DNA of 22,303 nucleotides from a virus (IMGVR_UViG_3300042384_000134:1-22303); one strand, 5' to 3'. Shown: positions 2,178 through 21,842, counted from the first letter of the stretch. Made by a program: numbers and translations. The notes: generated from the sequence alone by a model not told the origin.

Positions 2178-2703
2178 CCAATATATCAGCCGTAACTATG
2201 AAGAGGTGCTCAAATATACTAAGCACTTCCTCAAGCGACTCAATATACCAAGCTCAATAGATGCAGATGCAGTCATCAACAACGCATATCTACACTGTGT
2301 GAAGGTCAACATACCAGATATGACTCAAGACAAGGCTAAGAGCTACCTACTGAACACTATCAAGTATGAGTTGATATGGACTCAAGGCTCCAGGACTAAG
2401 AAAGATGACATCTACAGATCACAAGAGTACCTAACAGATTGCATTGATGACCCAACAGAGATAGAACACAAGATAAGACTTGAAAATGACCACAACTTTA
2501 AGAAGGCAATGGTTGAGATATACAGGAACTCATTGGATGATAGGATAAAAAGAATTATATTTGAGGCATACTATGACAAAGGTCACTCAACTCAGACGGC
2601 ACTGGCTCAGTACTTTGACATCAACAGTACATCGGCATACTTTCTGATTAGAGAAATAAAACAAAATATAAAAGAAATACAATATAGGTATGAAGAGTGT
2701 TGA
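2161..2703 (+). CDS. sigma-70-like transcription factor (putative late sigma)
   Basis: 180 residues arranged like a small two-domain sigma factor. Residues 34-80 (DADAVINNAYLHC... KSYLLNTIKYELIW ... RTKKDD) resemble sigma region 2. Residues 126-172 form a region-4-like helix-turn-helix (RIIFEAYYDKG, then TALAQYFDINSTSAYFLIREIK). An acidic linker joins the halves. Such a protein would direct host RNA polymerase to phage promoters. It lies after the recombination block and directly before the packaging and structural genes, and the first copy of the repeated late-type promoter sits inside its last codons. That makes it the natural candidate to recognise this promoter. Sigma likeness is judged by eye and could instead be a related activator. 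Confidence 0.6.
   Translation: MKLILDQYISRNYEEVLKYTKHFLKRLNIPSSIDADAVINNAYLHCVKVNIPDMTQDKAKSYLLNTIKYELIWTQGSRTKKDDIYRSQEYLTDCIDDPTEIEHKIRLENDHNFKKAMVEIYRNSLDDRIKRIIFEAYYDKGHSTQTALAQYFDINSTSAYFLIREIKQNIKEIQYRYEEC
2658..2692 (+). promoter_or_regulatory. repeated phage promoter element, copy 1
   Basis: AAAACA (2658-2663), a 14-nt spacer, then TACAATATAGGTATG (2678-2692), the last three bases being the start codon of the small gene at 2690. It overlaps the 3' end of the sigma-like gene. The 15-base core is identical in copies 2, 3 and 5; the upstream box is the weakest of the five. Confidence 0.7.
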
Positions 2704-2854
2704 CATCATAGGCTTAATCACTTACATCCTGGCATGGGGTGTGGTGCTCGCACTAATCAATGAGAATATGTACCTGCTGTTTAAATTTGCAGGTGCTACA
2801 TTAGGAGCTTATTTAATATTTATTATAATACAACAGAATGAATTACAAAATTAA
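2690..2854 (+). CDS. tiny putative membrane protein
   Basis: 54 residues, mostly apolar: a first hydrophobic stretch (about 5-23, IIGLITYILAWGVVLALI) and a second (about 29-47, ending LIFIII) are separated by a short NEN turn, so a two-helix hairpin in the membrane is likely. Its ATG is the one at the end of the repeated promoter core, which supports it as a real gene despite its size. It overlaps the sigma-like gene by 14 nt and the next gene by 17 nt. No function can be assigned; a role at the membrane early in the late phase is possible. Confidence 0.65.
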   Translation: MKSVDIIGLITYILAWGVVLALINENMYLLFKFAGATLGAYLIFIIIQQNELQN

Positions 2855-3110
2855 AGAAGAGTGGGAGAACAAGACTATCAAAGTCTATAGTAAGCACACA
2901 GGAACAAGAGCAATGTCAACATCTAAGATAGACTTGACAAAGATAGAGTACTATTTCAGCATCGGTCTTAAGCATATCTTTGAAGAGGTGGTCACTACCA
3001 CTGCACCAGAGGTTGTTGTCATAGAGTACAAGGCTATTGAGGGACCAATACCAGAGTCAACTCCTAAGCCTAAAAAGAAACGCAAACCTAAAGGTGATGC
3101 CCAAGCATAA
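2838..3110 (+). CDS. hypothetical protein with Lys/Pro-rich tail
   Basis: 90 residues. The first two thirds form a small mixed fold (KTIKVYSKHTG..., SKIDLTKIEYYFSIGLKHIFEEV), and the last 20 residues are a Pro/Lys tail (PKPKKKRKPKG) likely to bind nucleic acid or be disordered. No domain is recognised. It lies between the tiny membrane gene (17-nt overlap) and the small terminase gene (14-nt overlap), so it is probably expressed with the packaging genes. Confidence 0.65.
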   Translation: MNYKIKEEWENKTIKVYSKHTGTRAMSTSKIDLTKIEYYFSIGLKHIFEEVVTTTAPEVVVIEYKAIEGPIPESTPKPKKKRKPKGDAQA

Positions 3111-3510
3111 ACACATAGAGACTCCAGAGGCAATGTGGGAGCTATTCGAGAAGTACAAAGAATGGACCAAGAACAACCCACGATATCAATACTCACTGTC
3201 AAACAAGACAGGTGAGGCTACTGCTGTACCTTTGGAGAGACCAATGACTCAAGTAGGTTTTAGATGCTTTGCTGCTGATATGAATAGTTCAGTGCAGGAT
3301 TACTTTGCTAATACGGATGGGAGATATTCAGCGTATACGACAATCTGTACACGCATAGAGGAAGCAATCAGACAAGACCAAATTGAAGGAGGGATGACAG
3401 GGCAGTACAATGCCTCCATCACTCAGCGACTAAACAACCTAACTGAGAGAGTTGATACAACTACTCAAGGTCAGGCAATAAATGATATTAAGGTTACTAT
3501 TATTAAATAG
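3097..3510 (+). CDS. putative terminase small subunit
   Basis: 137 residues. The pattern AMWELFEKYKEWTKNNP (12-28), LERPMTQVGF (46-55), then a helical part ending in EGGMTGQYNASITQRLNNL (97-115) is what I recall of small terminases of Bacteroidota phages, which bind the packaging site and load the large terminase. The large terminase gene follows after one small gene. Start: ATG 3097 (MPKHKHIETP) is preferred over the in-frame 3037, whose extra 20 residues would lie inside the preceding gene. DNA-binding residues cannot be pinpointed. Role inferred from pattern and position. Confidence 0.65.
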   Translation: MPKHKHIETPEAMWELFEKYKEWTKNNPRYQYSLSNKTGEATAVPLERPMTQVGFRCFAADMNSSVQDYFANTDGRYSAYTTICTRIEEAIRQDQIEGGMTGQYNASITQRLNNLTERVDTTTQGQAINDIKVTIIK

Positions 3511-3512
3511 TG

Positions 3513-3520
3513 TATCTTTG
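3513..3520 (+). promoter_or_regulatory. possible host-type -7 box in the pre-terminase gap
   Basis: TATCTTTG fits the Bacteroidota -7 pattern TAnnTTTG and lies in the 75-nt gap 3511-3585, but no TTG/TTTG stands 19-21 nt upstream. Apart from this box I see nothing clear in the gap. Confidence 0.25.
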
Positions 3521-3585
3521 ACATAAATCTTACTATACTACTAATTAAGTGGTATAGGTCAACTATTGCACACAAACTAACATCT

Positions 3586-3759
3586 ATGGCAAAGACAAAG
3601 ACAAAAATAAAGGAGGAAAATGATTTCTTGAAAGGAGTAAAAATTGCTTTCATGCACTTTGACTCAGATGGTAAACTTACTGAATTAGATAGTTTAGAAA
3701 ATATAAGCTGGATAGAATATGGAGATAAAGAGCACAGTGATATTCGAGAGGAACTTTGA
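3586..3759 (+). CDS. small hypothetical protein overlapping terL start
   Basis: 57 residues, highly charged: a Lys-rich N-terminus (MAKTKTKIKEEN) followed by FLKGVKIAFMHFDSDGKLTELDSLENISW, with acidic residues later. No family recognised. It begins after the only real gap in this area and runs 41 nt into the large-terminase gene in another frame. That overlap, plus the well-supported terminase start, leaves some doubt about the last residues or the gene itself. Its sensible composition and position suggest it is real. Confidence 0.5.
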   Translation: MAKTKTKIKEENDFLKGVKIAFMHFDSDGKLTELDSLENISWIEYGDKEHSDIREEL

Positions 3760-4870
3760 AGCCCTCAACAGTCCAGACCATAGATTCATTATCAATGAGG
3801 GCGGCTCAAGGTCATCTAAGACCTACAGCCTATGCCAGCTGATTATAGTCTACTGCTTGCAGAACAGAGGCAAGGTAGTGAGCATCATACGAAAGACCTT
3901 CCCTGCACTCAGAGCTACAGTGATGCGTGACTTCTTAGAGATCATGAAGGACTTAGATATCTATGAGGTGAGCAAGCACAATAAGTCTGAGCACATCTAC
4001 ACCTTTGACAATGGCAGCATAGTGGAGTTCTTCTCAGTAGATGATGAGCAAAAGATAAGAGGTAGGAAGAGAGACCTGGCATGGTGCAATGAGGCTAATG
4101 AGCTGTACTACGATGACTTCACTCAGCTCAACATGAGGACAGAGGGTAAGCTGATCTTTGACTACAACCCATCTGAGAGCAACTCATGGCTGTATGAACT
4201 ACCAGTTGAGGAGAGCATCCTCATCAAGTCAACGTACAAGGACAACCCCTTCCTACCAGATAGCATCAAAAGACAGATAGAGGACTTGAAGAGAACAGAT
4301 GAGGCACAATACCAGATATATGCCTTGGGTGAGAAAGCCATCAGCAAGAGCAACATCTACTCTAATTGGTCCTTTGTCAAGCATAGGCCTGCTAAGTTCA
4401 CATCCTTCGTATATGGCCTTGACTTCGGATACAACCACCCTACTGCACTGATACGTGTGTACTGGAGAGATAAGGACATCTACATTGAGCCAGTCATCTA
4501 TGAGAGCTACTTGACCACAACTGACCTCATCGCAAGGATGGATCAGTTAGGCATTGATAAGAGTGTGAACATACTGGCTGACTACTCAAGGCCAGAGACC
4601 ATAGCAGAGATAGATAGGGCAGGGTATTACATTGAGAATGCCAACAAGGTAGTGAAGAAAGGGATAGATAACATCAAGACCTTTGGTGTGATCTGTGAGG
4701 AGCACCCTGCACTCAAGAAGGAGTATGAGAACTATAAGTGGAAAAAGATAGGTGATCAGATAACAGATGAGCCAGTCAAGTTGTGGGATGATGCCATGGA
4801 TGCCATTCGATATGCAGCGACATACATCAAGCAGGAGTACTACACTGATGACAGTTACTTAGCCTTCTAA
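3719..4870 (+). CDS. terL: terminase large subunit (packaging ATPase-nuclease)
   Basis: 383 residues with both domains of a PBSX-type large terminase. ATPase: Walker A GGSRSSKT (28-35) and Walker B with catalytic Glu in LAWCNEAN (120-127, E125). Nuclease: D235 in GLDFGYNHP, D288 in ADYSRPE, and the acidic end WDDAMDAIRYA (356-366). It cuts concatemeric phage DNA and drives it into the prohead. The start at 3719 is needed because Walker A follows after 27 residues, which forces the 41-nt overlap with the upstream small gene. Unlike most phages the next genes are tail genes, not portal. A promoter element follows 4867-4902. Confidence 0.95.
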   Translation: MEIKSTVIFERNFEALNSPDHRFIINEGGSRSSKTYSLCQLIIVYCLQNRGKVVSIIRKTFPALRATVMRDFLEIMKDLDIYEVSKHNKSEHIYTFDNGSIVEFFSVDDEQKIRGRKRDLAWCNEANELYYDDFTQLNMRTEGKLIFDYNPSESNSWLYELPVEESILIKSTYKDNPFLPDSIKRQIEDLKRTDEAQYQIYALGEKAISKSNIYSNWSFVKHRPAKFTSFVYGLDFGYNHPTALIRVYWRDKDIYIEPVIYESYLTTTDLIARMDQLGIDKSVNILADYSRPETIAEIDRAGYYIENANKVVKKGIDNIKTFGVICEEHPALKKEYENYKWKKIGDQITDEPVKLWDDAMDAIRYAATYIKQEYYTDDSYLAF

Positions 4871-4902
4871 CAGGATTCTCTTCAAGATACAATATAGGTA
4901 TG
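4867..4902 (+). promoter_or_regulatory. repeated phage promoter element, copy 2
   Basis: CTAACA (4867-4872) overlaps the terL stop codon; a 15-nt spacer follows, then TACAATATAGGTATG (4888-4902), whose ATG starts the next gene. Unlike copy 1, the core lies in a non-coding gap, so its conservation cannot be due to protein coding. Confidence 0.75.
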
Positions 4903-6396
4903 GCAACAACAATCATAGCACAGCCTCAAGACTTCACACCTGCATACAATGAGTGCAAGTTCATAGTGAACTCAACCAATGTGAACAAGGCAGGCTTCAG
5001 ATATATCTTTGAGGTATACGAGTCAGGAACGGCAACAAGGATAGGATACTACAAGGCACTGCCAACATTCGGCACTGGCTATGGTGAGCAGGACTTAAGC
5101 AAGCTACTAAGTAACATGGTGAGCTTTGACTTCAACCCATATATCACTACCTTCTATGATGCTGCCAACTCATACTATAACTACGACATCAAGATAGGTG
5201 AAGAGTATATCTTTGACCTAAGCTACACAGCCTCATTGGTTAACAATGCGGGTAACGTTCGCATCACAGCAACTCATCCCTTCCAGGTAGGTGACCAGGT
5301 GAACATCACACAGGCTGACTTAGGTGTGGCCAACCCAGGAGTAGAAGGACTGCATACAGTGATTGCCATTACAGGCACAACTAACTTCACCATCAACGCT
5401 CTATGGGCTGATGTGACTGATGCAACCATTAACGGCTCAGTTGAGTATGCTGATAAGAGAAAGACAATATCCTTAGACATAGTGAGCACACTTGATAAAT
5501 ATGTGTTCAACGGTGTGCAGCCTTGGATTGATATGCCGTACTGGGATGAGACTAACTATGAGCTTGACAACGTACTTGGCCAATGGCTCACTGACCAGCC
5601 TACAACATTCAGCTGTACACTTGGTCAGGACTTATGGCTTAACATTAAAGACCCAGGCATAGCACCTACCAACAAGAGGGTGTACTTTGAGAATGACAAC
5701 GGTGATCTGTTCTACAAGGCTGTGAGTGGAGCTGACTACATCAAGGGTGTGGCAGTTGGTCCTAACAACTACGGTTCGCTTACAGTGGTAAGTGGCACTG
5801 CTCCATTGGTCAAGCCTACAACCAAAGTATATCAGATGTGGTACAGTGATGGTATATTCAACCCTGTGAAGTCATTAGCATACACCATCAACATAGATAG
5901 AAGGATACTAATCTCTGAGAGTCACATCCTGTTCCTTGACCGTATGGGCTCATGGAGTAGCTTTGCCTTCCAGCTCAAGAGCTATGAGAAGCTAAACATC
6001 AAGAGAGAGACATACAACAAGGATGTACCTGGCAGCGTGGTTGACTCACAATGGCAGTATAAAAGTTATGAACAAGGCATTGTTAATTTCAACACCCAAG
6101 TAAGTAAGACTATTGACCTCAACACCAACTGGATGACTGAGAGTGCAGGTGTATACTTCCAGCAGTTGGTAACATCACCACAGACTTACATCAAGAATGT
6201 AGTGTATCACATCACAGAGGAGGGAGAACCACTCTATGATGAGGATGGCTGCATCATACATATCCCTGAGAGCACTGAGTATATCAGTTGCAACGTTGTG
6301 AACAACACCTTTGACATACAGAGAGAGAGGAACAAGCACTTGATTAGGCAACAGCTACAGGTTAGGTTATCTAATAACGACATGATCAATGGTTAA
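4900..6396 (+). CDS. putative tail structural protein
   Basis: 498 residues, beta-rich and low in charge, with many Asn, Thr and Tyr, as in phage tail and baseplate proteins. Residues about 100-180 include FQVGDQVNITQADLG and a following Thr/Asn-rich strand pattern like a small Ig-like or adhesion insert. The C-terminal part ends in a short charged helix (RERNKHLIRQQLQVRL). No precise family is recognised. It is the first gene after a promoter element and overlaps by 8 nt the gene for the next large tail protein, with which it probably assembles at the tail tip. Confidence 0.6.
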   Translation: MATTIIAQPQDFTPAYNECKFIVNSTNVNKAGFRYIFEVYESGTATRIGYYKALPTFGTGYGEQDLSKLLSNMVSFDFNPYITTFYDAANSYYNYDIKIGEEYIFDLSYTASLVNNAGNVRITATHPFQVGDQVNITQADLGVANPGVEGLHTVIAITGTTNFTINALWADVTDATINGSVEYADKRKTISLDIVSTLDKYVFNGVQPWIDMPYWDETNYELDNVLGQWLTDQPTTFSCTLGQDLWLNIKDPGIAPTNKRVYFENDNGDLFYKAVSGADYIKGVAVGPNNYGSLTVVSGTAPLVKPTTKVYQMWYSDGIFNPVKSLAYTINIDRRILISESHILFLDRMGSWSSFAFQLKSYEKLNIKRETYNKDVPGSVVDSQWQYKSYEQGIVNFNTQVSKTIDLNTNWMTESAGVYFQQLVTSPQTYIKNVVYHITEEGEPLYDEDGCIIHIPESTEYISCNVVNNTFDIQRERNKHLIRQQLQVRLSNNDMING

Positions 6397-9154
6397 GATA
6401 GTACTATCAACAGGGTTGCTGGATGTTGCTGACAACGTATCTTTACCTATAACATTTAACATCGGTGACATTAGAGATCTATCATCTCGCAAGGGTACGT
6501 TCTCTAAAACCATTGTGCTTGAGGGAACTAAGAACAACAATGAGCTGTTAGGCCATTACTACGATGTGAACATCCAAGCAGGCACATTCAACATCAACAC
6601 CTTGACTAAGTGCCAGGTGATACAGAACGGTGTGCCAATCTTAGATGAGGCATTGCTACAGTTGGTGAGCGTGAACAAGGTGCAGAGTAACAACAGCTAT
6701 GAGGATGAGGTAACATACAGCGTATTGATTAAGGATAGCAGAGCTGAGTTCTTCACTGCCATCACTAATGCCTATCTCACTGACTTAGACTTTAGTGATC
6801 TAAACCATGCCTTTGACTCTGCTGCTATAGCTGGCACATTCAACAACACTGTGGCTGATGGATATAAGTATCTGATGCCATACAATGATACTAATGTGTT
6901 CCAAGCTAATGACTTCAAGCCTGCCATCTATGCCAAGACATACTGGGATAGAATATTCGCTGTGGCTGGCTTCACATACACATGGAGTGAGATAGCGGCT
7001 GCACACTTTGATAAGTTGCTGATACCATACAACGGAGATGTCAACAACCAAGACTATGAGGACTACAGAGTTGAGGCGACCAACACATGGACTACAACTA
7101 ATGTGCAGGCCGTTGGTCAGAACGTAACTTTCCAAGAGGCTATAGACTCAGGATGGAGTGAGCTGATAGACACACAATCTTTGTTTGACCCAACCACTGG
7201 AGAGTACACTTCACCAATCAGCACCAGTGCTGTAGCAGGTGAGCACTATGTGTACAGCTTGACAATAGGTGGTACTATATCACTTGACAATACAAGTGGT
7301 GGTACGGCTACCTTGTTGCAACCAACATTCATAGGTAACTCATTCAACAGATATAGACCTTATGCTGTAGTCAATGTAGCAGGTCAACAGAATGCTGTTG
7401 TATTTGGTCAATCTCAAACAGTTTACGCTGGCACAGTGCCAACTGGCAGCACTACAATACTAACATTCTCAGAGACTTTACCTATACCTGCTGTTACCAA
7501 TGACCCATTTAACTTAGCTATAGATGTAGCAGATATACAAGTACTATATGTAGGTGTTCAAATCACAACATTTGGAGATGCAGTATTGTCATATCAAGCA
7601 CAGAATCAAGGTGTGTGGAGGCTTGTAAGTAGCTTACTTACACCAGCAGCAGTCAACGTAGTCCTTGACCTGAACTTCATCAACATGGTGATATTGCCAA
7701 GCAACAACATACAGATCACTGGAGGCACGTTGACAATGAACCAATATGTGCCTGTTGAGATTAAGCAGTCAGACTTCGTGAAGGGCATCCTACAGATGTA
7801 CAACCTTTATGTTGAGCAGGACATTGACAACCCAAACAACCTTGTACTAAGGCATCGTGATGAGTACTATGACTCAGGAGCTGAGAAGGACTGGAGCGAG
7901 AAACTTGCTAAGGATAGAGGGCAGGACTTAATGTTCCTTCCTGACTTGACTAAGAAGAGGCTTAAGCTAACCTATGAAGCTGATGAGGATACTGCTAATA
8001 AATTATACACACAAGCGACTGGTGAGATATACGGTCAGATAGAATACACTTTTGACAATGAATATGTTAAGGATGTTGAGACTCAGGCTCTACTGTTCTC
8101 ACCTACTCCAGTTTACTCTACGAGTTTTGGTGCATACCTTCCAGCCATAAACGGTGCAGCACCCAACACCAACATACGCATCTTGTATGATGGAGGAGAG
8201 CAGGTATGCCAGCCGTTTGACATAGTTGATTTTGGCACAACTGGTCAATATGGCTTGACTGACTATCCTATGATTGGTCACTTCAACAATGCGTTAACAC
8301 CTACCTTTGATATTAACTTTGGCACGAATGACTTTTACTTCTATGAGACAATATCACTGACAGCAAACAACCTGTACAACTTATACTGGAGGCGTACTGT
8401 CAACCAGATAAACGTAGGTAAGATGTTGACAGCTATGTTTGACCTTAATGAGGTAGACATACAGTCACTCAAGCTCAATGATAAGATATACATAGACAAC
8501 TCATGGTGGAACATTAACAAGATTGCTGACTACAACGCTAACAACAACCAGCTCACTAAGGTAGAGCTGATAAGCATAGATACAGAGATTGACCTGGCAC
8601 CGTTCAAGACTGGTGCAGGCAGACCTATTGGTGATACTATCACTGCTATAGGTACTGATGCTATCTTAAGAACGAGGTCAATGACCAGCAACGTGATCAT
8701 GCCTGGTGCAGATGCTATGGTGTTTGGTAAAGGTAACACTGTGACTGCTGGCACGAGGGGTGTTGTGATTGGTGACGGTCAGACCTTGAGTGATGATGGT
8801 ATGGTTGTGAGTAACTTGACTGTGACTGGCAGCATCAATGGTGATGTTGTGGTCAACAGTGCTAAGTACATTGCAACCATCAGCCAGTCAGGAACATCAG
8901 ACCCTACAGTGACTGTACTTGAGAATACAATAGGAGATATTGTGTGGACACGTACTACTAATGGTGACTACAGAGGCACACTGACTGGAGCGTTTCCTAT
9001 AGATAAAACTTACTTAATGCTGAGCAACACTAATACAGGTCAAGTGTTAATAAAATGGCTAAGTGCAAATGAGATAAGAATAAGGACATTTGATCCATTG
9101 CCAGGTGAAGACTCAAGACTTGATTATAACACAATAGAAATAAGAACATACTAA
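6389..9154 (+). CDS. large tail tip / fibre protein
   Basis: 921 residues. The N-terminal segment (LPITFNIGDIRDLSSRKGTFSKTIVLEGTKNNNELL, about 19-54) is of a type I recall from Bacteroidota phage tail proteins. The long middle is beta-rich. Around 505-690 there are charged and Tyr-rich stretches. Near 775-805, VFGKGNTVTAG and VVIGDGQTLSDDG form a short repeat like the head repeats of trimeric adhesins (YadA-type), followed by NLTVTGSINGDVVV, and a compact C-terminal domain. It is likely part of the tail tip or a fibre. The start overlaps the upstream gene by 8 nt; the tape measure gene starts 1 nt after its stop. Confidence 0.65.
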   Translation: MVKIVLSTGLLDVADNVSLPITFNIGDIRDLSSRKGTFSKTIVLEGTKNNNELLGHYYDVNIQAGTFNINTLTKCQVIQNGVPILDEALLQLVSVNKVQSNNSYEDEVTYSVLIKDSRAEFFTAITNAYLTDLDFSDLNHAFDSAAIAGTFNNTVADGYKYLMPYNDTNVFQANDFKPAIYAKTYWDRIFAVAGFTYTWSEIAAAHFDKLLIPYNGDVNNQDYEDYRVEATNTWTTTNVQAVGQNVTFQEAIDSGWSELIDTQSLFDPTTGEYTSPISTSAVAGEHYVYSLTIGGTISLDNTSGGTATLLQPTFIGNSFNRYRPYAVVNVAGQQNAVVFGQSQTVYAGTVPTGSTTILTFSETLPIPAVTNDPFNLAIDVADIQVLYVGVQITTFGDAVLSYQAQNQGVWRLVSSLLTPAAVNVVLDLNFINMVILPSNNIQITGGTLTMNQYVPVEIKQSDFVKGILQMYNLYVEQDIDNPNNLVLRHRDEYYDSGAEKDWSEKLAKDRGQDLMFLPDLTKKRLKLTYEADEDTANKLYTQATGEIYGQIEYTFDNEYVKDVETQALLFSPTPVYSTSFGAYLPAINGAAPNTNIRILYDGGEQVCQPFDIVDFGTTGQYGLTDYPMIGHFNNALTPTFDINFGTNDFYFYETISLTANNLYNLYWRRTVNQINVGKMLTAMFDLNEVDIQSLKLNDKIYIDNSWWNINKIADYNANNNQLTKVELISIDTEIDLAPFKTGAGRPIGDTITAIGTDAILRTRSMTSNVIMPGADAMVFGKGNTVTAGTRGVVIGDGQTLSDDGMVVSNLTVTGSINGDVVVNSAKYIATISQSGTSDPTVTVLENTIGDIVWTRTTNGDYRGTLTGAFPIDKTYLMLSNTNTGQVLIKWLSANEIRIRTFDPLPGEDSRLDYNTIEIRTY

Positions 9155-9155
9155 C

Positions 9156-11723: not shown

Positions 11724-12172
11724 CAAGTTATCAAGCACTAATCAACCACATTGAGGCCTTCTACAACAACCATCTACAGGTTAAGAAGGTAGGCTCAGAC
11801 TTCACAGAGCAACTACCTAACTTTGCTACCAAGGATGAGAGGTATCCTTTGGTGTTCATAGCTCCAGTCTTTGCATCTCCGACCACAAACACCAACACGA
11901 TCAGCTTAGAGATATACTGCTTTGATATCATCCAAAAGGATAGAGCTAACATCACAGTAATACTCTCTGACTGCCATCAGATATTGGTTGACCTGGTTAA
12001 TCAGTTCACATTCAGTGATGACTACTCCTTTGATATCATAGGCTTACCATCCCTCACACCTATGAACAACCAACTACTTGACTATGCTGCTGGATGGATG
12101 ATGAGTTTAGATGTTGACATGAGCAACTGGACTGATTGCCAGGTTCCACTTCTAACAAATTTGCCAACGTAG
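11720..12172 (+). CDS. putative tail completion / terminator-like protein
   Basis: 150 residues. The order helix (YQALINHIEAFYNNH), strand block (RYPLVFIAPVF, SLEIYCFDIIQKDRANI), helix (ILSDCHQILVDLVNQF) and a final strand pair resembles tail-terminator or neck proteins of siphoviruses. The stretch FDIIQKDRANITVILSDCHQI recurs in Bacteroidota phages as I remember them. The start overlaps the tape measure stop (ATGA). It is the last gene of its unit, since a promoter element starts just before its stop codon. Function is a low-confidence inference. Confidence 0.55.
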   Translation: MTSYQALINHIEAFYNNHLQVKKVGSDFTEQLPNFATKDERYPLVFIAPVFASPTTNTNTISLEIYCFDIIQKDRANITVILSDCHQILVDLVNQFTFSDDYSFDIIGLPSLTPMNNQLLDYAAGWMMSLDVDMSNWTDCQVPLLTNLPT

Positions 12173-12187
12173 TACAATATAGGTATG
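12152..12187 (+). promoter_or_regulatory. repeated phage promoter element, copy 3
   Basis: CTAACA (12152-12157), a 15-nt spacer, then TACAATATAGGTATG (12173-12187) ending with the ATG of the fibre gene at 12185. The upstream box and most of the spacer lie inside the end of the previous gene; the core is in the gap. Confidence 0.75.
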
Positions 12188-12841
12188 GCAAGCAGACAAA
12201 AGATATCACAGATGACTCCGAAAGGGGCTAATCTTGAAGCTACTGACTTACTTGAGGTGAGTGTATTGACTGGCACTGGATATGGTACTTACTCTATCAC
12301 AGGACTTGAAGTGATGAGTGGCTCTGCATCATTGAGTAACTTGTACACTCAGACAGCATCAAGCACACCTGTCACCAACACAACTACTGAGACCTCCCTC
12401 CTTGATGGCGGCTTAGGTAGTTTGAGTATCCCTGCTGATGGGTTCAATGTAGGTGATAGCTTCCATGCTATACTTACAGGCCATATCTCAGCTGTCAACA
12501 ACCATACCTTAACTATAAGGATAAAGGCTGGCAGTGTTGTATTGGCAACAACAGGAGCAATCACAATGGCAGGAACAACTGGCAAGCATTGGAAGCTGGA
12601 AATGTTTTTTACTGTGAGGACTATAGGAGCAGCGGGTGTAGCATCCATAGCTACAGGAGGTGCTTTCATGTACACTAAGAATGCATCTACTAACTTTGAA
12701 GGGATTAACTTTAGTACTGAGAACACTACTACCTTTGATACTACTGTATCTAATACATTAGTTATCACTGCTCAGTGGAATACTGCCAACGCTGGAGACT
12801 CTATATATTCAGAAATATTTACACTTAATAAAACTTATTAA
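12185..12841 (+). CDS. putative tail fibre/adhesin with viral jelly-roll-like C-terminus
   Basis: 218 residues. The N-terminus (KISQMTPKGANLEATDLLEVSV, about 6-27) looks like an attachment module shared by Bacteroidota phage fibre proteins. The remainder from about 70 to the end (LLDGGLGSLSIPADGFNVGDSFHA, GKHWKLEMFFTVRTIG, NTLVITAQWNTANAGDSIYSEIF) matches a compact beta domain I recall at the C-termini of fibres and collagen-like proteins in diverse viruses. Probable role: surface recognition. Expressed from its own promoter element, followed by three small genes that may also belong to the tail tip. Confidence 0.6.
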   Translation: MASRQKISQMTPKGANLEATDLLEVSVLTGTGYGTYSITGLEVMSGSASLSNLYTQTASSTPVTNTTTETSLLDGGLGSLSIPADGFNVGDSFHAILTGHISAVNNHTLTIRIKAGSVVLATTGAITMAGTTGKHWKLEMFFTVRTIGAAGVASIATGGAFMYTKNASTNFEGINFSTENTTTFDTTVSNTLVITAQWNTANAGDSIYSEIFTLNKTY

Positions 12842-12843
12842 CA

Positions 12844-13110
12844 ATGAACACAGATAACGACATACTAATTGCAAATCAAGGAACATTTATCCTTAATAAC
12901 ACAGTTGCAAAAACAGTAACTATCAATGCTATAGTAGCACTTGAGGATACTGTATTCAGTGCTATCAGAATAGCAGGAACAGATGTGAAAGCAACTTACA
13001 TTGCTGCACCATCAACAGCTGTGAAAGCAGGTACTATCATACGTGCTACTAATGCTCAACAGTTTAGTGGTGTTACTTTAACAAGTGGATCAGTAATTTT
13101 AGTACTATGA
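12844..13110 (+). CDS. small beta-rich hypothetical structural protein
   Basis: 88 residues, rich in Ala, Thr, Val and Ile with few charges: a probable all-beta fold (GTFILNNTVAKTVTINAIVA and SGVTLTSGSVILVL). No family recognised. It starts 2 nt after the fibre stop and overlaps the next gene by ATGA, so it belongs to the same unit. It could be a small fibre or tail-decorating protein. Base composition begins to shift here to AAA/GAA-type codons. Confidence 0.6.
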   Translation: MNTDNDILIANQGTFILNNTVAKTVTINAIVALEDTVFSAIRIAGTDVKATYIAAPSTAVKAGTIIRATNAQQFSGVTLTSGSVILVL

Positions 13111-13721
13111 TAAGTGCATTAAACTTCAAGATTGGTGGTGGTGCGGCTCCCACACCTGCACCAGTTGGTGCTACGTTAATGAAAACAGGACAAACTACTT
13201 CTTACCGTACAGGTGATGATGGTGATATTGAGGCTGGTAGAGCGACATCATTCACAGTACTTGCAAGTAATAATCCTTTTGGAAATACGAATAGATTTAC
13301 AGATGAGGTTGGTGGTCAAACATACACAAACAGGATAAGGATAGATTGGAGTACTTATGATGGCTCAACTGTTTTAGGTTACTATCAATTAGCAACGGCA
13401 ATATCATATACTTGGAATCAAGCTATAGATTGGGCTTTGGCTCTTTCAATAAGTACTTTTACAAGTGGCTGGAGATTACCTAATGTTAAAGAGTTTATGA
13501 ACATTATGAATTGGGGAATTGCTCAAAATTTAAATTATGCTCCTTTTTCTTTTTTGAGTTTAAGTCACTTTTCAAGTACTACTTCACAAAGAAGCACAAC
13601 TACTGCTTTTTTAATTAATTCAAATTCAGATGGCCCAATAGGAGAATTTGCCAAAACAACAGCAAGAAACACTGTTTTTGCAGTACGAACATTCACAGTA
13701 ACAGGAACAACATTATCTTAA
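13107..13721 (+). CDS. DUF1566-like (C-type-lectin-fold) receptor-binding protein
   Basis: 204 residues. The C-terminal half has the signature of DUF1566/Lcl-type domains: WNQAIDWALAL (103-113), GWRLPNVKEFMNI (121-133), YAPF (144-147), FSSTTS (155-160) and VFAVRTF (190-196). These adopt a C-type-lectin-like fold and are often found in phage or surface adhesins. The first 30 residues look like an attachment peptide with an Ala/Pro linker. It sits in the fibre cluster, so it may bind the receptor. The DNA is noticeably more AT-rich than in the tail genes before it. Fold is moderately sure; function inferred. Confidence 0.65.
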   Translation: MISALNFKIGGGAAPTPAPVGATLMKTGQTTSYRTGDDGDIEAGRATSFTVLASNNPFGNTNRFTDEVGGQTYTNRIRIDWSTYDGSTVLGYYQLATAISYTWNQAIDWALALSISTFTSGWRLPNVKEFMNIMNWGIAQNLNYAPFSFLSLSHFSSTTSQRSTTTAFLINSNSDGPIGEFAKTTARNTVFAVRTFTVTGTTLS

Positions 13722-13732
13722 TATAAAAAAAA

Positions 13733-13969
13733 ATGGCAACTTACAAATTTCCACAGTTCAACGTTGAAATAACAAACCCAACGGTAACTGTAACAACGGT
13801 AACAGATAACATAATTGAAAGAGTATGTTCAGCGAGTGTAATTCTTTCAACCCCATCAACCAATTTTGGTGTTGAATTTAGCGGTTACATTTATACAACA
13901 GATTGGAACGACCAAGAAATAATTGATTGGGTAAACAACGTAGAGCTTCCAAAATACGAAGTGAAGTAA
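13733..13969 (+). CDS. small conserved-type hypothetical phage protein
   Basis: 78 residues, starting MATYKFPQFNVEITNP and ending WNDQEIIDWVNNVELPKYEVK. This pattern of a beta-rich body closed by a short Trp-containing helix is familiar from flavobacterial phages, but no function is known to me. An A-rich stretch (TATAAAAAAAAA) precedes the ATG, as favoured for translation initiation in Bacteroidota. It has AT-rich codon use like the preceding adhesin gene. Confidence 0.65.
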   Translation: MATYKFPQFNVEITNPTVTVTTVTDNIIERVCSASVILSTPSTNFGVEFSGYIYTTDWNDQEIIDWVNNVELPKYEVK

Positions 13970-13972
13970 TCA

Positions 13973-14425
13973 ATGGCAAGATACGCTAACACTGGAGAGT
14001 TTAATGTCCTTTATCCTACAAGGAGAAGGATGGCTACGATATTGAAACGTATTATAAGGAATGATGTTGTTGATGGTGAAGGCACATTGGTTGAGTCTAT
14101 CAGAATCAATGCTAAGATTACAGGCTTTGAGAAACTTGAGATACAAATCATTGCTATGTACTACTTCATATTTCTTAACAACGGTGCATACTTATGGAAC
14201 AATGGTATAATTACACCACGTGACTACGTTGCACAGTTCACAGATGAGCTGAATGCAGCAGGCATCACAGCTGAGATATACTCACAGTACACTGAGTGGT
14301 TAACAAAAAGATTTCCTATCCTACAAGTAGCAGAAGTACTTGAGAAAAATCAAAGAATCACTTATACTTTCTACGCTATAGACCCACCTGCTGGCTTCCA
14401 ACCAGGCGTTGCATTAGACGTTTAG
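13973..14425 (+). CDS. hypothetical phage protein, possible tail/neck component
   Basis: 150 residues. A basic N-terminus (RRRMATILKRIIRN) is followed by a helical-strand body with MYYFIFLNNGAYLWNNGIITPRDYV (142-base region around residues 62-86), then EYSQYTEWLTKRFPI-type helices. The segment vaguely recalls HK97-gp10-like neck proteins, but I cannot assign it. It starts 3 nt after the preceding stop. Its 3' end overlaps by 12 nt the end of the convergent minus-strand gene. Confidence 0.6.
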   Translation: MARYANTGEFNVLYPTRRRMATILKRIIRNDVVDGEGTLVESIRINAKITGFEKLEIQIIAMYYFIFLNNGAYLWNNGIITPRDYVAQFTDELNAAGITAEIYSQYTEWLTKRFPILQVAEVLEKNQRITYTFYAIDPPAGFQPGVALDV

Positions 14426-15148
14426 TTCCTTCTTCATACCTAACATATTAAAGGTCATGATTAGTGATAGATTAGTCACTTCATTGAACTTAGTTAAGTC
14501 CTCATTGCATAGGCTGTAGATTAGTCTTTCCCAGCCCCACTTTTTCTCACTCTTTTTCAGAGCTACTGCCTTGGCCTCATCAGATGTAACTGGCACATCA
14601 TCCTCATCCTCATCACTTCCATCCTCATCTGTGAACAGATTAGCATAGGTGGTCATGAATGACTCTCTGTATGCAAGATACTCAGGCAGGATACCGTAAA
14701 CATCATTGATACACACCTCATCAAAGATACTGCATCTTAGACTTGGCTTGAACTCATACGGCTCATACACTGTCTCTCCCCATTCATTGGTCATCACCTT
14801 CCGATATATGATAGATGCAATGTGGCCAACGTGCTGATTATAGTCTTTGGAGAAGTAGTGCTCAAGGTCAATGAACTCACCTACAGTCAAGGTGTTCAAT
14901 GGCTTATAGTGATACTCACCAATCACGTGCTTGTAGTTCTTGGATGGCTCAGAGTTTATGAAGGTAATCTTAGCCAGCATCTCACTGACTTCACTTATGT
15001 CAAGGTCTTCTAAGTCATCGGATGGTATGTCAGCCAGGGCAGAAAGTATCTCTATCTCCCTGGTGAACACCTCTTGTATAGAATACAGCTCTCTAATCTC
15101 TTTGAACTGTAATACATCTATCTCACTCCACGACTTCGGAAGGTACAT
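14414..15148 (-). CDS. paralogue B of a divergent pair, possible tail-assembly chaperone
   Basis: 244 residues. The N-terminus LPKSWSEIDVLQFKEI (3-18) has the pattern of short phage proteins that I associate with tail-assembly chaperones. The first 120 residues align by eye with the adjacent minus-strand gene. A Glu/Asp run (about 172-184) separates a C-terminal helical domain with WGWERLIYSLCNEDLTKFNEV that the paralogue lacks. It starts inside the end of that gene (26-nt overlap in another frame). It is one of only two genes transcribed against the phage late strand. The chaperone role is a guess; the paralogy is clearer. Confidence 0.65.
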   Translation of the reverse strand: MYLPKSWSEIDVLQFKEIRELYSIQEVFTREIEILSALADIPSDDLEDLDISEVSEMLAKITFINSEPSKNYKHVIGEYHYKPLNTLTVGEFIDLEHYFSKDYNQHVGHIASIIYRKVMTNEWGETVYEPYEFKPSLRCSIFDEVCINDVYGILPEYLAYRESFMTTYANLFTDEDGSDEDEDDVPVTSDEAKAVALKKSEKKWGWERLIYSLCNEDLTKFNEVTNLSLIMTFNMLGMKKELNV

Positions 15149-15668
15149 CCTTAGGCATTTGTTTAGCTAACTTCTGACCTACCTCAACTAAGTAAGGAAC
15201 GGCAATCTCTGCCTTGAGCTCTCTGATTATCTTTGCTTTGAGCTTGATGTGTGCATCTGCATAGTGCTCAGCCTTTGTCAAGTCAGTACGTTTGAACAGG
15301 ATGGCCAGCATCTCTGAGATGTATCCCTTATGTCTTGAGTGCATAGCCTTATCGATGTGCTTTGTATCCCTAACAGATAGCTTGAAGGTATCCTCAAAGG
15401 CGGTGTAAGTGTAGTTCATGTGCTCAAAGGACGGTTGTAGCTCTGGCTTACCACTAAGATTGTTAAACTGCTTAACACATTCCTTGAACTCCTCAATAGA
15501 TACATCATCCCAGTCTGCTTCCGGCACTCCTAACAGAGTGAACACGTCAATGTGTTTCTCAATAGAATCCAGCTCTTGATTTGCATGGATTGTTGTGATG
15601 TCCTCGAACTGTTGCACCGTCAACTCATTCAATTGGTTGGGTACTTCTTTACCTAAAATTGTTACCAT
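15123..15668 (-). CDS. paralogue A of a divergent pair, possible tail-assembly chaperone
   Basis: 181 residues. VPNQLNELTVQQFEDI (9-24) aligns with LPKSWSEIDVLQFKEI of the next gene, and similarity continues through a helical region to about residue 120 (MLAILFKR versus ASIIYRK). Start: the ATG at 15668 (MVTILGKEV) is preferred; an upstream in-frame ATG would add six apolar residues (MLKIIF). It diverges from the protease gene across a 43-nt gap. Size and N-terminal pattern fit a tail-assembly chaperone, but such genes normally precede the tape measure on the same strand, so this is uncertain. Confidence 0.65.
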   Translation of the reverse strand: MVTILGKEVPNQLNELTVQQFEDITTIHANQELDSIEKHIDVFTLLGVPEADWDDVSIEEFKECVKQFNNLSGKPELQPSFEHMNYTYTAFEDTFKLSVRDTKHIDKAMHSRHKGYISEMLAILFKRTDLTKAEHYADAHIKLKAKIIRELKAEIAVPYLVEVGQKLAKQMPKDVPSEVVE

Positions 15669-15679
15669 AAATATAATTT

Positions 15680-15714
15680 TTAACAAATATAATACTTTTT
15701 ACAATATAGGCATG
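15680..15714 (+). promoter_or_regulatory. repeated phage promoter element, copy 4
   Basis: TTAACA (15680-15685), 14-nt spacer, then TACAATATAGGCATG (15700-15714), one base different from the other copies (C for T just before ATG). All of it lies in the non-coding gap between divergent genes, so the match is not a coding effect. Confidence 0.75.
15684..15691 (-). promoter_or_regulatory. possible host-type -7 box for the minus-strand pair
   Basis: Read on the minus strand this is TATATTTG, a perfect match to the -7 pattern TAnnTTTG, 15 nt before the ATG at 15668. No TTTG is seen at the expected distance upstream. It overlaps the TTAACA box of the opposing phage promoter. Confidence 0.35.
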
Positions 15715-16689
15715 GACAGACCAGTATACAAAATTACTATTGATGAGGCTTACTCTGATGGACAGGACCTGGGTGTGGAAATGATTGCCTTCACAAACAA
15801 GCCTGCAATTAAGGTCAAAGGGCTGGCATTCAATTCTCATGTTGCTCCTATGACATTCAGTGACTCAGTTAAGATGCGTATTGTTGCTCCTGCCATGATA
15901 CCTATGAACATCTATAGACAAGATGAGGATGGTGAAGAGTATGATGTGCAGTTCAGTTCAGAAGTGATTGAGCAGATACACGCTAAGTTTATGCTGAACC
16001 TACAGAACAAAGATATCTTTAACCTTGAGCATGATCAAGATGAGAAAGTTCCTGCATACATCCTTGAGGCCTGGATAGTAGACAGTCCAGAGACTGACAA
16101 AGCATTCACAACATACGGCATTGAGGTACCTAAGGGCACATTGATGTTGACAAGCCAAGTAACTGATAGAGAATACTATGATGCACTGGTTGAGTCTGGT
16201 CAGGTAGGTTACTCTATTGAGGGATTCTTAGGCATGAAATTATCGGAACAATTAAAATTAAATACAATGAAGTTACCAGATGGAGAACACATGATTGAGG
16301 ATAAGATCTACGTTGTTAAAGACGGAGAGATTATCGAGATCAAAGAAATGCCTACAGAGATGGAAGCAGAAATGGCTGCTGACCCAGTAGCAGAAGAGGA
16401 AGCTGAAGTTGCAGCAGAGAACCCAGAGGCTGAGGCTGAGGATGCTGAGGCTGATGCACCAGTACAAGAGGAAATGGCTATTGACCCTGCAGTTGATACA
16501 GAGGCTATCCTTGCTATCGTAGCACCAATGCTTGAGGAGCACATGAATGCAGTTATCAGAATGATTGCTGACTTAAAGAACCAACTTGAGGAGAGTCTTG
16601 CTGTTGAGACAGAAACAGAAACAGAGAGTGTGGAGTTGACTTCACATGAGAAATTTAAAGAATTTGTAAAATTTTCAAAAACCAAATAA
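15712..16689 (+). CDS. XkdF-like prohead protease fused to scaffold-like tail
   Basis: 325 residues. Residues 1-175 match the XkdF-type phage serine protease: NLEHDQ (104-109, H107), VPAYILEAWIVDSPETDKA (113-131) and QVGYSIEGFLG (164-174, S168) carry the likely catalytic His and Ser. Residues about 212-310 are an acidic Ala/Glu-rich segment with a predicted helix (IVAPMLEEHMNAVIRMIADLKNQLEE region), typical of a capsid scaffold. The fused protein would shape the prohead and then cleave itself and the capsid protein. The start at 15712 is fixed by the promoter element; an in-frame ATG at 15595 would run through the opposing gene. The capsid gene follows 1 nt after its stop. Confidence 0.8.
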   Translation: MDRPVYKITIDEAYSDGQDLGVEMIAFTNKPAIKVKGLAFNSHVAPMTFSDSVKMRIVAPAMIPMNIYRQDEDGEEYDVQFSSEVIEQIHAKFMLNLQNKDIFNLEHDQDEKVPAYILEAWIVDSPETDKAFTTYGIEVPKGTLMLTSQVTDREYYDALVESGQVGYSIEGFLGMKLSEQLKLNTMKLPDGEHMIEDKIYVVKDGEIIEIKEMPTEMEAEMAADPVAEEEAEVAAENPEAEAEDAEADAPVQEEMAIDPAVDTEAILAIVAPMLEEHMNAVIRMIADLKNQLEESLAVETETETESVELTSHEKFKEFVKFSKTK

Positions 16690-16690
16690 C

Positions 16691-17623
16691 ATGAACCGTA
16701 ATCTTAAATTCAATTTAGATATTGAAACAAACGCATTATTAGCTGCGAACCCAGAGGAGTTTTATTCAAAGGCTTATTTATCAAGCCCTGATATTCCTAA
16801 CAACTTTAGAACTTTACCAGGTGTGAAGTCAAAAACAAAATTAGCCAATGTAGTATTTGGTCAAGTGTTGCAAGCCTACAACTGTGCTTTCTTACCAAGT
16901 ACTGACCAATTAGATGCTATTGACATTGATGTATGTTCATTGTCTGCAATGGCTGAACTTTGTCAGTTCGATTTAGAGCAGTCTTTCTTAGCTTTGCAAA
17001 TGACAAAAGGATCTAATGGTGACTTCACTGTTGCATCTTTCATGGCATACTACTGGAATGAGATGGCTTTGACTATTGGTCAAGACATTGAGGTGTTGAG
17101 ATGGCAAGGTAATGATGCATCTCTTGATCCATTATTGTCTTTGTGTACTGGATACTTATTCAAGATGTTCTATGATACAGATGTTATAGGTTTATATGAT
17201 GGAGCTATCACTACATCTAATGTATTGACTCAATTAGAGGCTATGCTTAACGCTGCACCTGCATCTATAGTAAGACGTAAAGCTGACTTAAGATTCTACG
17301 TTTCAACAAACGTAGCTAACGCATATGAGTTGAAAGCTGCATCTGGTAACACTCAGACTTTCGTTACATTACCATTAGGATTAACTTTCTTAGGTATCAA
17401 TGTAGTGACTTGTGAAGGTATGCCAGATAACACTATGGTGTTGACTTTGAAAAATAATCTTATATACAGTTTCGATGCTGAAGGAGACTCTAAAGCATTG
17501 AAAGCCATCAACTTAACTGACACAGTTGCTGAGCCTGTATTGAGAACACGTGCCAACATGAAGGTAGGTTTCCATTATACCAACCCTACTGAGATTGTTT
17601 TGTATAACGCATTCTATATCTAA
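16691..17623 (+). CDS. major capsid protein (putative HK97 fold)
   Basis: 310 residues directly after the protease-scaffold gene and closed by a strong terminator. Helix/strand order fits a compact HK97-fold capsid protein: an N-terminal arm, a helix-rich middle (CSLSAMAELCQFDLEQSFLALQ; FMAYYWNEMALTIGQDIEVLRWQG), a domain with RRKADLRFYVSTNVANAYELK, and a strand-rich end (TRANMKVGFHYTNPTEIVLYN). No cleavage site can be placed with confidence. Lysine codons are mainly AAA (9 of 13), unlike the AAG-rich tail genes, which may reflect selection for strong expression. Assignment rests on position and fold-like features. Confidence 0.75.
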   Translation: MNRNLKFNLDIETNALLAANPEEFYSKAYLSSPDIPNNFRTLPGVKSKTKLANVVFGQVLQAYNCAFLPSTDQLDAIDIDVCSLSAMAELCQFDLEQSFLALQMTKGSNGDFTVASFMAYYWNEMALTIGQDIEVLRWQGNDASLDPLLSLCTGYLFKMFYDTDVIGLYDGAITTSNVLTQLEAMLNAAPASIVRRKADLRFYVSTNVANAYELKAASGNTQTFVTLPLGLTFLGINVVTCEGMPDNTMVLTLKNNLIYSFDAEGDSKALKAINLTDTVAEPVLRTRANMKVGFHYTNPTEIVLYNAFYI

Positions 17624-17627
17624 ATAT

Positions 17628-17658
17628 AAAGGGAGGTAGTAAGTGCCTCCCTATTTTT
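17628..17658 (+). terminator. intrinsic terminator after the capsid gene
   Basis: AGGGAGG (17630-17636) pairs perfectly with CCTCCCT (17646-17652) around a 9-nt loop, followed by ATTTTT. It lies between the capsid and putative major tail genes. Confidence 0.9.
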
Positions 17659-17678
17659 AACTTTTAAAAAATATACCT

Positions 17679-18218
17679 ATGAGCTGTGAAGCATTAATTG
17701 CCATCGAAAAAAGCTGTGATAACAACAGTGGTGGTATCAAAAGAATTTATATCAATCTACAGGATAACGTAGACATGGATACATTATCAACAATTAGCCC
17801 TGTTGTTAATCCTGGTGATGCCTATACTATTGACGCACTTGACTTAGTAGTTGCAGCAGATCCATTCACTGAGTTTGAGTTCAGACGTAACACATCTGGA
17901 TACACAGAGGAGAGCAATATTGACTTAATCAATGGCTCAAGTTTTGTAACTCAAACTATCAACCTAATGTTCCACAGAAGAGAGGCAGCTAAGTCAAATG
18001 CTATTAAAGTATTAGGCTCTGGACAGCAGTACTTATCTGCTGTAGTTGAGGACCAGAACGGCATCCTTTGGTTCTTCCCTTACTTGCAGTTGACTGCATC
18101 TGGTGAAGGCTCAGGAACAGCTCGTGCAGATGGCTCAAAATATTCCGTTACACTTCTTGCGGAGAATGACCAGTTGGCTTATACAATGACTACTGGTGTG
18201 TTGACTGGTTTACTATAA
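17679..18218 (+). CDS. putative major tail (tube) protein
   Basis: 179 residues, beta-rich, with a block FVTQTINLMFHRREAAKSNAIKVLG (about 88-112) and then LSAVVEDQNGILWFFPYLQLTASGEGSGTA. The size and a single domain fit a siphovirus tail tube protein, made in many copies. It is enclosed by two intrinsic terminators (before at 17628, after at 18235). AATATACCTATG at its start is a loose relative of the promoter core (11 of 15), but no upstream box is present. Gene call is sure; the tail-tube role is inferred from size, fold and neighbours. Confidence 0.65.
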   Translation: MSCEALIAIEKSCDNNSGGIKRIYINLQDNVDMDTLSTISPVVNPGDAYTIDALDLVVAADPFTEFEFRRNTSGYTEESNIDLINGSSFVTQTINLMFHRREAAKSNAIKVLGSGQQYLSAVVEDQNGILWFFPYLQLTASGEGSGTARADGSKYSVTLLAENDQLAYTMTTGVLTGLL

Positions 18219-18234
18219 CCCTATCATATCTATG

Positions 18235-18267
18235 AAGAGCCTCACTACTTAGTGGGGCTTTTTTTTA
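18235..18267 (+). terminator. strong intrinsic terminator
   Basis: AGCCTCAC (18238-18245) pairs with GTGGGGCT (18252-18259), 8 bp with one G-U pair, loop TACTTA, followed by a run of eight T (18259-18266). The -35-like box of the next promoter element overlaps the T-run. Confidence 0.93.
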
Positions 18268-18300
18268 ACAATTATTTTTTAGTAGTACAATATAGGTATG
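18265..18300 (+). promoter_or_regulatory. repeated phage promoter element, copy 5
   Basis: TTAACA (18265-18270), 15-nt spacer, TACAATATAGGTATG (18286-18300), ending with the ATG at 18298. It stands immediately after a strong terminator in non-coding DNA, where a promoter is required for the portal block, and so gives the best argument for promoter function. Confidence 0.8.
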
Positions 18301-18633
18301 ATATATCTTGAGAAAGACACAGTCAACTTGTTTGTTCTGACCTTAACAGAGGTTACAACCATCCCAGACGCATACTATTTATTTGAGTTTGAGGATGAGT
18401 TCAACACTGCACCCGACCCTATATACTGGGAAGGCACAGATACTTCTGTATATCCCTCAAGATTCAACCTATTCACACTTGATGAGCCCACAGATATTGA
18501 CTTCGTAAAGGGTCAGTATAGATACAAGGTGTATCAAAGCTCAGTCCCTACTATTGACCCTACTGGCTTGACCATGATAGAAGAGGGTAGGATGGTAGTG
18601 GCAGGTGTAACACTTAACTCAATATATGACTAA
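18298..18633 (+). CDS. hypothetical phage protein before portal
   Basis: 111 residues, beta-rich: YYLFEFEDEF, YPSRFNLFTLDEP, KGQYRYKVYQSS and a final MIEEGRMVVAG. The order of short strands suggests a single small beta-sandwich, as in head or tail decoration proteins, and similar proteins sit near structural genes in flavobacterial phages. It is the first gene of the unit after the fifth promoter element; its stop overlaps the portal ATG (TAATG). No function assigned. Confidence 0.65.
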   Translation: MIYLEKDTVNLFVLTLTEVTTIPDAYYLFEFEDEFNTAPDPIYWEGTDTSVYPSRFNLFTLDEPTDIDFVKGQYRYKVYQSSVPTIDPTGLTMIEEGRMVVAGVTLNSIYD

Positions 18634-20772: not shown

Positions 20773-20984
20773 GCATGAGAGAAAGATGGTCAGCTCCCAC
20801 TCCTAAGTTCTGGAAGAGAGTACAAAAAATAGCTATCACAGTAGGTGCTGTAGCAGGTGTTATCATTGCTGCACCTATCACATTGCCAGCAGCAGTAGTA
20901 ACTGTGGCAACATACGCTATCACAGCAGGTACTGTAGCGGCAACCTTATCACAATTAACAATAGAAAGCAATGAGCAACGTTAA
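20769..20984 (+). CDS. putative holin
   Basis: 71 residues. A charged N-terminus (MSMRERWSAPTPKFWKRVQK) leads to two apolar stretches (about 22-38, and 41-60) separated by LP, then a short polar tail. Size and topology suit a small two-helix holin, which would open the membrane at lysis. It overlaps the previous gene by ATGA and the enzyme gene by 14 nt, so the three are translated as one lysis cassette. Prediction only; no known holin family motif was recognised. Confidence 0.6.
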   Translation: MSMRERWSAPTPKFWKRVQKIAITVGAVAGVIIAAPITLPAAVVTVATYAITAGTVAATLSQLTIESNEQR

Positions 20985-21810: not shown

Positions 21811-21842
21811 TTTGCGTAAATGAAAAAACTTATCTACATTTG
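21811..21842 (+). promoter_or_regulatory. host-type Bacteroidota promoter
   Basis: TTTG (21811-21814), 20-nt spacer, TACATTTG (21835-21842): both boxes match the Bacteroidota -33/-7 consensus (TTTG, TAnnTTTG) with near-ideal spacing. It faces the zinc-finger gene at 21868. This is the strongest sequence clue to the host phylum. Confidence 0.85.

Follow-up and report, generated by a model that had tools for sequence, protein, structure and literature searches.

Putative late promoters fused to start codons and a candidate ECF-like sigma factor in a small uncultured phage

Five copies of a two-box element were found at the borders of structural gene blocks in the window, which is one whole IMG/VR record of 22 kb that covers part of a phage genome. 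The five elements are most probably late promoters, at which host RNA polymerase directed by a phage ECF-like sigma factor would produce leaderless or near-leaderless mRNAs. The candidate sigma factor is encoded by the gene at 2161-2703 and, judged from its modelled fold, very probably directs bacterial RNA polymerase to the five sites late in infection. The original prediction had proposed a phage-specific late promoter family, and after comparison with ~200 related loci this is still the best reading of a function deduced from sequence.

The element at the structural block borders

The core TACAATATAGG(T/C)ATG occurs as five exact copies in the window, all on the + strand, at 2678, 4888, 12173, 15700 and 18286 (Table 1). 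With up to 3 mismatches allowed, the only other match in the window was a single minus-strand site with 3 mismatches. Each core closes with the start codon of a block-opening gene (ATGs at 2690, 4900, 12185, 15712 and 18298), and four of the five cores are identical while copy 4, at 15700, carries the C variant, exactly as had been described. The blocks opened are the small membrane gene with terS and terL, the tail genes, the fibre-like genes, the protease and capsid genes, and gene 18298 with the portal gene. The 11-mer core appeared only twice in total over 200 dinucleotide shuffles of the window, and 12-mers reached at most 3 occurrences in 200 shuffles compared with four in the real window.

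The description of the upstream half needed correction. A yTAACA box at a spacing of 14-15 nt is present at copies 2-5, whereas copy 1 has AAAACA at 2658-2663, which has only AACA in common with yTAACA. Copies 2-5 have non-coding cores as claimed, whereas the core of copy 1 is coding and lies within the 3' end of the 2161-2703 gene. The upstream box of copy 3 is coding as well, and the terL stop codon falls inside the upstream box of copy 2. The reading as two boxes was retained, and the pair first given as TTAACA/TACAAT is better written as AA(C/T)-N18-AATATA after cross-lineage comparison. The TAnnTTTG -7 box of the host primary-sigma type is absent from all five elements, in agreement with the claim that the boxes are unlike the host pattern.

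Table 1. Putative promoters, genes and signals of the window discussed in the text.
Feature	Position	Strand	Detail
Promoter copy 1 (putative)	2658..2692	+	AAAACA-N14-TACAATATAGGTATG; AAC at 2660-2662; before small membrane gene 2690, terS, terL
Promoter copy 2 (putative)	4867..4902	+	CTAACA-N15-TACAATATAGGTATG; before tail block
Promoter copy 3 (putative)	12152..12187	+	CTAACA-N15-TACAATATAGGTATG; before fibre-like block
Promoter copy 4 (putative)	15680..15714	+	TTAACA-N14-TACAATATAGGCATG; before protease and capsid genes
Promoter copy 5 (putative)	18265..18300	+	TTAACA-N15-TACAATATAGGTATG; before 18298 and portal
Putative ECF-like sigma factor gene (proposed late sigma), 180 aa	2161..2703	+	Fold matches; 3' end holds copy 1
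Small membrane gene, 54 aa	2690..2854	+	Served by copy 1 (putative); absent in L027/G003 subgroup
Terminase large subunit (terL)	3719..4870	+	PF04466, E 3.4e-31
Head maturation protease	15712..16689	+	PF14550, E 1.3e-07 (ORF read from 15709)
Probable major capsid protein	16691..17623	+	phrog_1623 virion structural protein, E 2.2e-16
Portal protein	18633..19919	+	phrog_11226, E 8.8e-27
Intrinsic terminator (predicted)	18234..18266	+	-17.2 kcal/mol, z -4.6; T run merges into copy 5 -35 box
Host-type promoter (predicted)	21811..21842	+	TTTG-N20-TACATTTG; early-region start, ahead of gene 21868
Host-type -7 box (predicted)	15684..15691	-	TATATTTG; overlaps copy 4 -35 box

The gene over copy 1 as a candidate sigma factor

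The likely cause of the element set, as far as the protein model goes, is the sigma-like gene that lies over copy 1, which was absent from the original prediction. The AlphaFold model of its product was built from 33 family members, replacing an earlier 15-sequence model (pLDDT 66), and reached a mean pLDDT of 80 and a pTM of 0.42, with helices that match sigma2 and sigma4. A Foldseek search of this model against the PDB returned almost exclusively sigma factors as top matches, the best three being 9n9q chain C (prob 1.00), M. tuberculosis SigL (0.99) and E. coli sigma-E (0.98), and isolated sigma4 domains (3hug) gave TMt values of 0.55-0.62. Whole-chain TM-scores were ~0.25-0.40, low because the orientation of the domains in the model is uncertain. 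The best matches among the BFVD viral models include phage proteins annotated as sigma-70/ECF. The model is consistent with a sigma-70 fold made of sigma2 and sigma4 alone, as in ECF sigma factors.

Recognition by sequence profiles of sigma-70 regions 2/4 was not obtained. No Sigma70 Pfam match was found among the 33 family members, PF08281 did not match the protein, the PHROG profiles did not recognize it, and a PDB sequence search with the family profile gave no match of note. Weak profile matches such as C5-epim_C were judged to be due to chance. Among annotated phages, neither a DNA relative nor a relative of the sigma-like protein was found. The identity of the protein as a sigma factor is well supported by its modelled fold, although not proved.

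Relatives were collected by an IMG/VR protein scan with the gene ending over copy 1 (140 relatives) and by a pattern scan for the element (at least 118 stretches). At 72% linkage the sigma family forms four groups, and identity to clade 0, the group of the window, is ~53% for clade 2, ~47% for clade 1 and 42% for the outlier L294/G037. Among the matches listed for the motif-scan contigs that were tested, the sigma gene was present in 5/5 contigs of at least 29 kb belonging to the phage group, and the other contigs that lacked the gene were fragments. Single pattern matches in unrelated contigs of 61-252 kb without a sigma gene, again among the matches listed, were treated as chance. Element and sigma gene co-occur down to 42% sigma identity. 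The sigma gene of one relative (L055, 8784-9323) looks recombinant, with an N-terminal half like that of the L078 group joined to a C-terminal half like that of the window group.

No core is found upstream of the window's own sigma-like gene, the first copy being at the 3' end of the gene, and the autoregulation that goes with ECF-type promoters is therefore not seen here. Autoregulation of the sigma gene is common for ECF sigma factors but not obligatory.

A different reader of the same promoters is conceivable, though unlikely: a host alternative sigma factor or a phage activator could bring the host polymerase to the elements while the sigma-like protein acts elsewhere. A candidate activator is the 71-aa ORF at 1493-1708, which has weak HTH DNA-binding matches (phrog_11420, E 0.008), and the sigma function of the 2161-2703 protein is itself assigned by fold alone. 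Against this stand the -35-like and -10-like boxes, which keep a fixed distance and differ from the host consensus, and the sigma-fold protein is the simplest reader of such boxes and was kept together with the element in each lineage examined.

Conservation of the element among relatives

The full sequences of eight near-complete clade-0 relatives (27.5-34 kb) were examined. In these genomes TACAATATAG was found at block borders only and on the structural (+) strand only, with five sites per genome in 6/8, six in G023 and four in G009, where copy 4 reads TTCAATATAG with a one-base shift. Since the copies in near-complete relatives are confined to borders, the part of the genome outside the 22 kb record probably holds no more of them. 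Equal frequency of the motif inside the coding sequences of relatives had been named beforehand as evidence against a promoter, and this was not observed, the core being restricted to block borders in the near-complete genomes. In G023 (L224-L225), copy 3 with its surroundings is found close to each end of the 34 kb contig, as would fit a circular map that was assembled redundantly.

Across the relatives the element is conserved as a bipartite AA(C/T)-N18(±1)-AATATA. At the clade-0 sites 2-5, AA(C/T) was present at N18-19 in 154/154 distinct sequences (copy 2, AA(C/T) at N19 in 49/49 distinct relatives; copy 3, AAC at N19 in 30/30; copy 4, AAC at N18 in 40/40; copy 5, AA(C/T) at N19 in 35/35). 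The -35 box of copy 1 is weak, with AAC at N18 in 36 of 56 distinct sequences and missing from 20. When the five clade-0 sites were given equal weight, the A located 18 nt upstream of the core was invariant, with the upstream box at its usual distance. An AAC -35 box at fixed spacing to the -10 box is the arrangement of ECF-type promoters, and repetition on the late strand ahead of structural blocks only is that of phage late promoters; both were found.

Equivalent block borders in the distant groups carried AAC-N17/18-AATAT(AG) at 31/35 sites, with few at other distances, and the core of the outlier is AATATATA instead of AATATAG. The start codon in distant lineages is usually located 2-6 nt beyond AATATAG, and it is GTG at some clade-1 sites. 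A de novo search for hexamers enriched ahead of start codons worked for clade 0 and failed for clades 1 and 2; the sites of the latter two were located by synteny instead. In clade 1 the fibre-gene N-terminus has been relocated directly behind terL (G031, 27368; G035, 9358); the promoter remains behind terL, and the tail gene 4900 is without one.

Some clade 1/2 promoters have AAACACGAA nearby, but this sequence is frequent genome-wide and was for that reason not counted as part of the promoter. AACACGA, often as AAACACGAA, is ~2.5-7 fold over-represented on the sigma strand of clade 1/2 relatives and not in the window's clade, with 10-25 copies per genome against ~4-5 expected (counted in G026, G028, G031, G033, G035, G036 and G029; loci L300-L313). 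A Chi-like role or one in packaging is possible for this motif, as is codon bias.

Copy 1, which overlaps a coding sequence, allowed conservation of the DNA to be separated from that of the protein. Its codons ATA CAA TAT AGG TAT were invariant in 79/79 distinct CDS of the upstream gene, whereas a frozen codon was found at only 5/85 of the other positions with an invariant degenerate residue in the same 79 CDS. By our own arithmetic, with positions taken as independent, the chance that all five codons are frozen is ~6e-6. The start codon is less constant than the core. In 26/56 distinct sequences, those of the L027/G003 subgroup, the ATG of copy 1 is changed to ATA with the core intact, the small membrane gene is absent, and the next gene begins ~15 nt downstream of copy 1. 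The gene at copy 3 (12185) is likewise absent from G002, where the core is retained and the next gene follows ~12-15 nt downstream. The conservation is strand-specific and at the DNA level, does not depend on the start codon and is limited to the borders of structural blocks.

Retention of the core without a start codon or first gene is expected of a promoter and not of a translation-initiation context that boosts the start codons of structural genes. The latter is very improbable, even though the core abuts the ATG at every window copy and in Flavobacterium the bases directly 5' of a start codon modulate initiation (PMC6847099). It is largely refuted by the ATA variants. The core is still present where no start codon is left and the next ATG is ~12-15 nt off, and a translation context does not account for a second box at a fixed spacing 18-19 nt upstream, the limitation to block-opening genes or the terminator directly before copy 5. 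Slightly less probable still is that the repeats are boundary sequences retained for inter-module recombination, as their location at module borders and the clade-1 fibre gene now directly behind terL, with the element at its border, might suggest, since such sequences require neither strand polarity nor a two-box geometry nor a near-fixed start-codon distance, and the geometry is held while the bases drift between lineages (TACAATATAGG, TTTAATATAGT, AATATATA).

Proposed late transcription and its relation to known systems

With the elements taken as sigma-directed late promoters, the early genes would be transcribed by host RNA polymerase from the host-type promoter at 21811-21842, and the early phase would yield the ECF-like sigma factor, whose gene closes the early region. 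This factor would then join the host RNA polymerase core and bring it to the AA(C/T)-N18-AATATA sites, so that the five structural blocks would be switched on in parallel. If TACAAT occupies -12 to -7, transcription is predicted to start at the A of the ATG, and late mRNAs would be leaderless or carry few leader bases. Strict leaderlessness everywhere is argued against by some distant-lineage sites, at which a few more bases separate the core from the start codon. Leaders longer than 10 nt were present on 87% of the transcripts analysed in F. johnsoniae (PMC6847099); late mRNAs that are leaderless throughout would thus be out of the ordinary for a host of this type and would set the late phage messages apart.

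The host-type consensus TTTG/TAnnTTTG used here is that of Flavobacterium johnsoniae (PMC6847099). The phages that carry the element are uncultured and from freshwater, a GTDB genome scan found no relative, and the terminase shows ~33% similarity to Bacteroidota phages. A Bacteroidota host is suggested by this similarity together with the promoter type. The Bacteroidota primary-sigma pattern is matched at the start of the early region, where the promoter would leave a leader of ~20 nt, and as the minus-strand -7 box at copy 4. Sites similar to the early promoter were found in G003, G022, G010 and G035.

At copy 4, TAnnTTTG was present on the reverse strand in 17/17 genomes of four lineages, and the TTTGTT of this box corresponds to the late box AACAAA read on the other strand. 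The box is proposed to serve the minus-strand genes 15668-15123 and 15148-14414. This suggests that copy 4 combines overlapping divergent promoters, one read by the host and the other by the phage, and this may have a regulatory consequence. An early/late switch, in which a dedicated ECF-like sigma factor and leaderless structural messages are joined by a shut-off of the divergent host-read genes through the overlap at copy 4, is offered tentatively, as possible rather than probable. The two minus-strand genes (14414-15148 and 15123-15668) overlap and are inverted within the structural region in every lineage, and neither has a PHROG match. Before copy 5, a hairpin-like sequence with a T run was present in every clade-0 genome inspected there.

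T4 late promoters consist of a -10-like TATAAATA only, and gp33 and gp45 are required. T4 gp55 and SPO1 gp28 with gp33/gp34 likewise are sigma-like phage proteins that redirect host polymerase to phage-specific late promoters, but the window phage is small (~30 kb), its protein is a compact two-domain ECF-like one, and its promoters have an AAC -35 box and are joined directly to start codons. ECF sigma factors (group 4 of the sigma-70 family) resemble the candidate in having ~180 aa, sigma2 and sigma4 alone, an AAC -35 box and fixed spacing, while the window protein differs in being phage-carried, with no sequence-profile match and no recognized anti-sigma factor. RinA, ArpU and Xpf of Gram-positive phages are sigma-like late regulators encoded close upstream of terminase genes. 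By their description they are alike in this position, but both sigma domains are present in the window protein, which would act at five separate promoters. Its best structural match, 9n9q chain C (15% identity), belongs to an RNA-guided transcription complex, whereas a DNA motif marks the sites in the window phage.

Phage-encoded late sigma factors are known already from T4 gp55 and SPO1 gp28/gp34, which are essential for infection (PMC9429907). The new part would be an ECF-like sigma factor with start-codon-fused promoters, of which no example was found in annotated phages; the open-access literature searched contained no description of such a system or of how comparable small phages control their late genes. 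Under the tentative switch reading above, a single element would let a lineage of small Bacteroidota-type phages take over both transcription and translation, and every structural block would be expressed from leaderless mRNA although the host relies mostly on leadered ones. The analysis offers a concrete candidate sigma factor, five defined promoters and a series of natural variants across phage lineages, which makes the specificity of the factor for its promoters and leaderless translation directly testable in a Bacteroidota-like host, and the element can serve as a motif in the annotation of many environmental phage contigs.

Some neighbouring genes may be mentioned. The 54-aa membrane protein encoded directly downstream of the sigma gene is limited to part of clade 0, and it may have an anti-sigma or holin role. 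A DUF3127 protein (1201-1509; PF11325, E 1.9e-26), which may act as a single-strand binding protein, is encoded in the replication region, and the gene at 20971-21519 has a weak Tlde1-like match (L,D-transpeptidase fold, E 0.014) and possibly encodes a cell-wall lysis protein.
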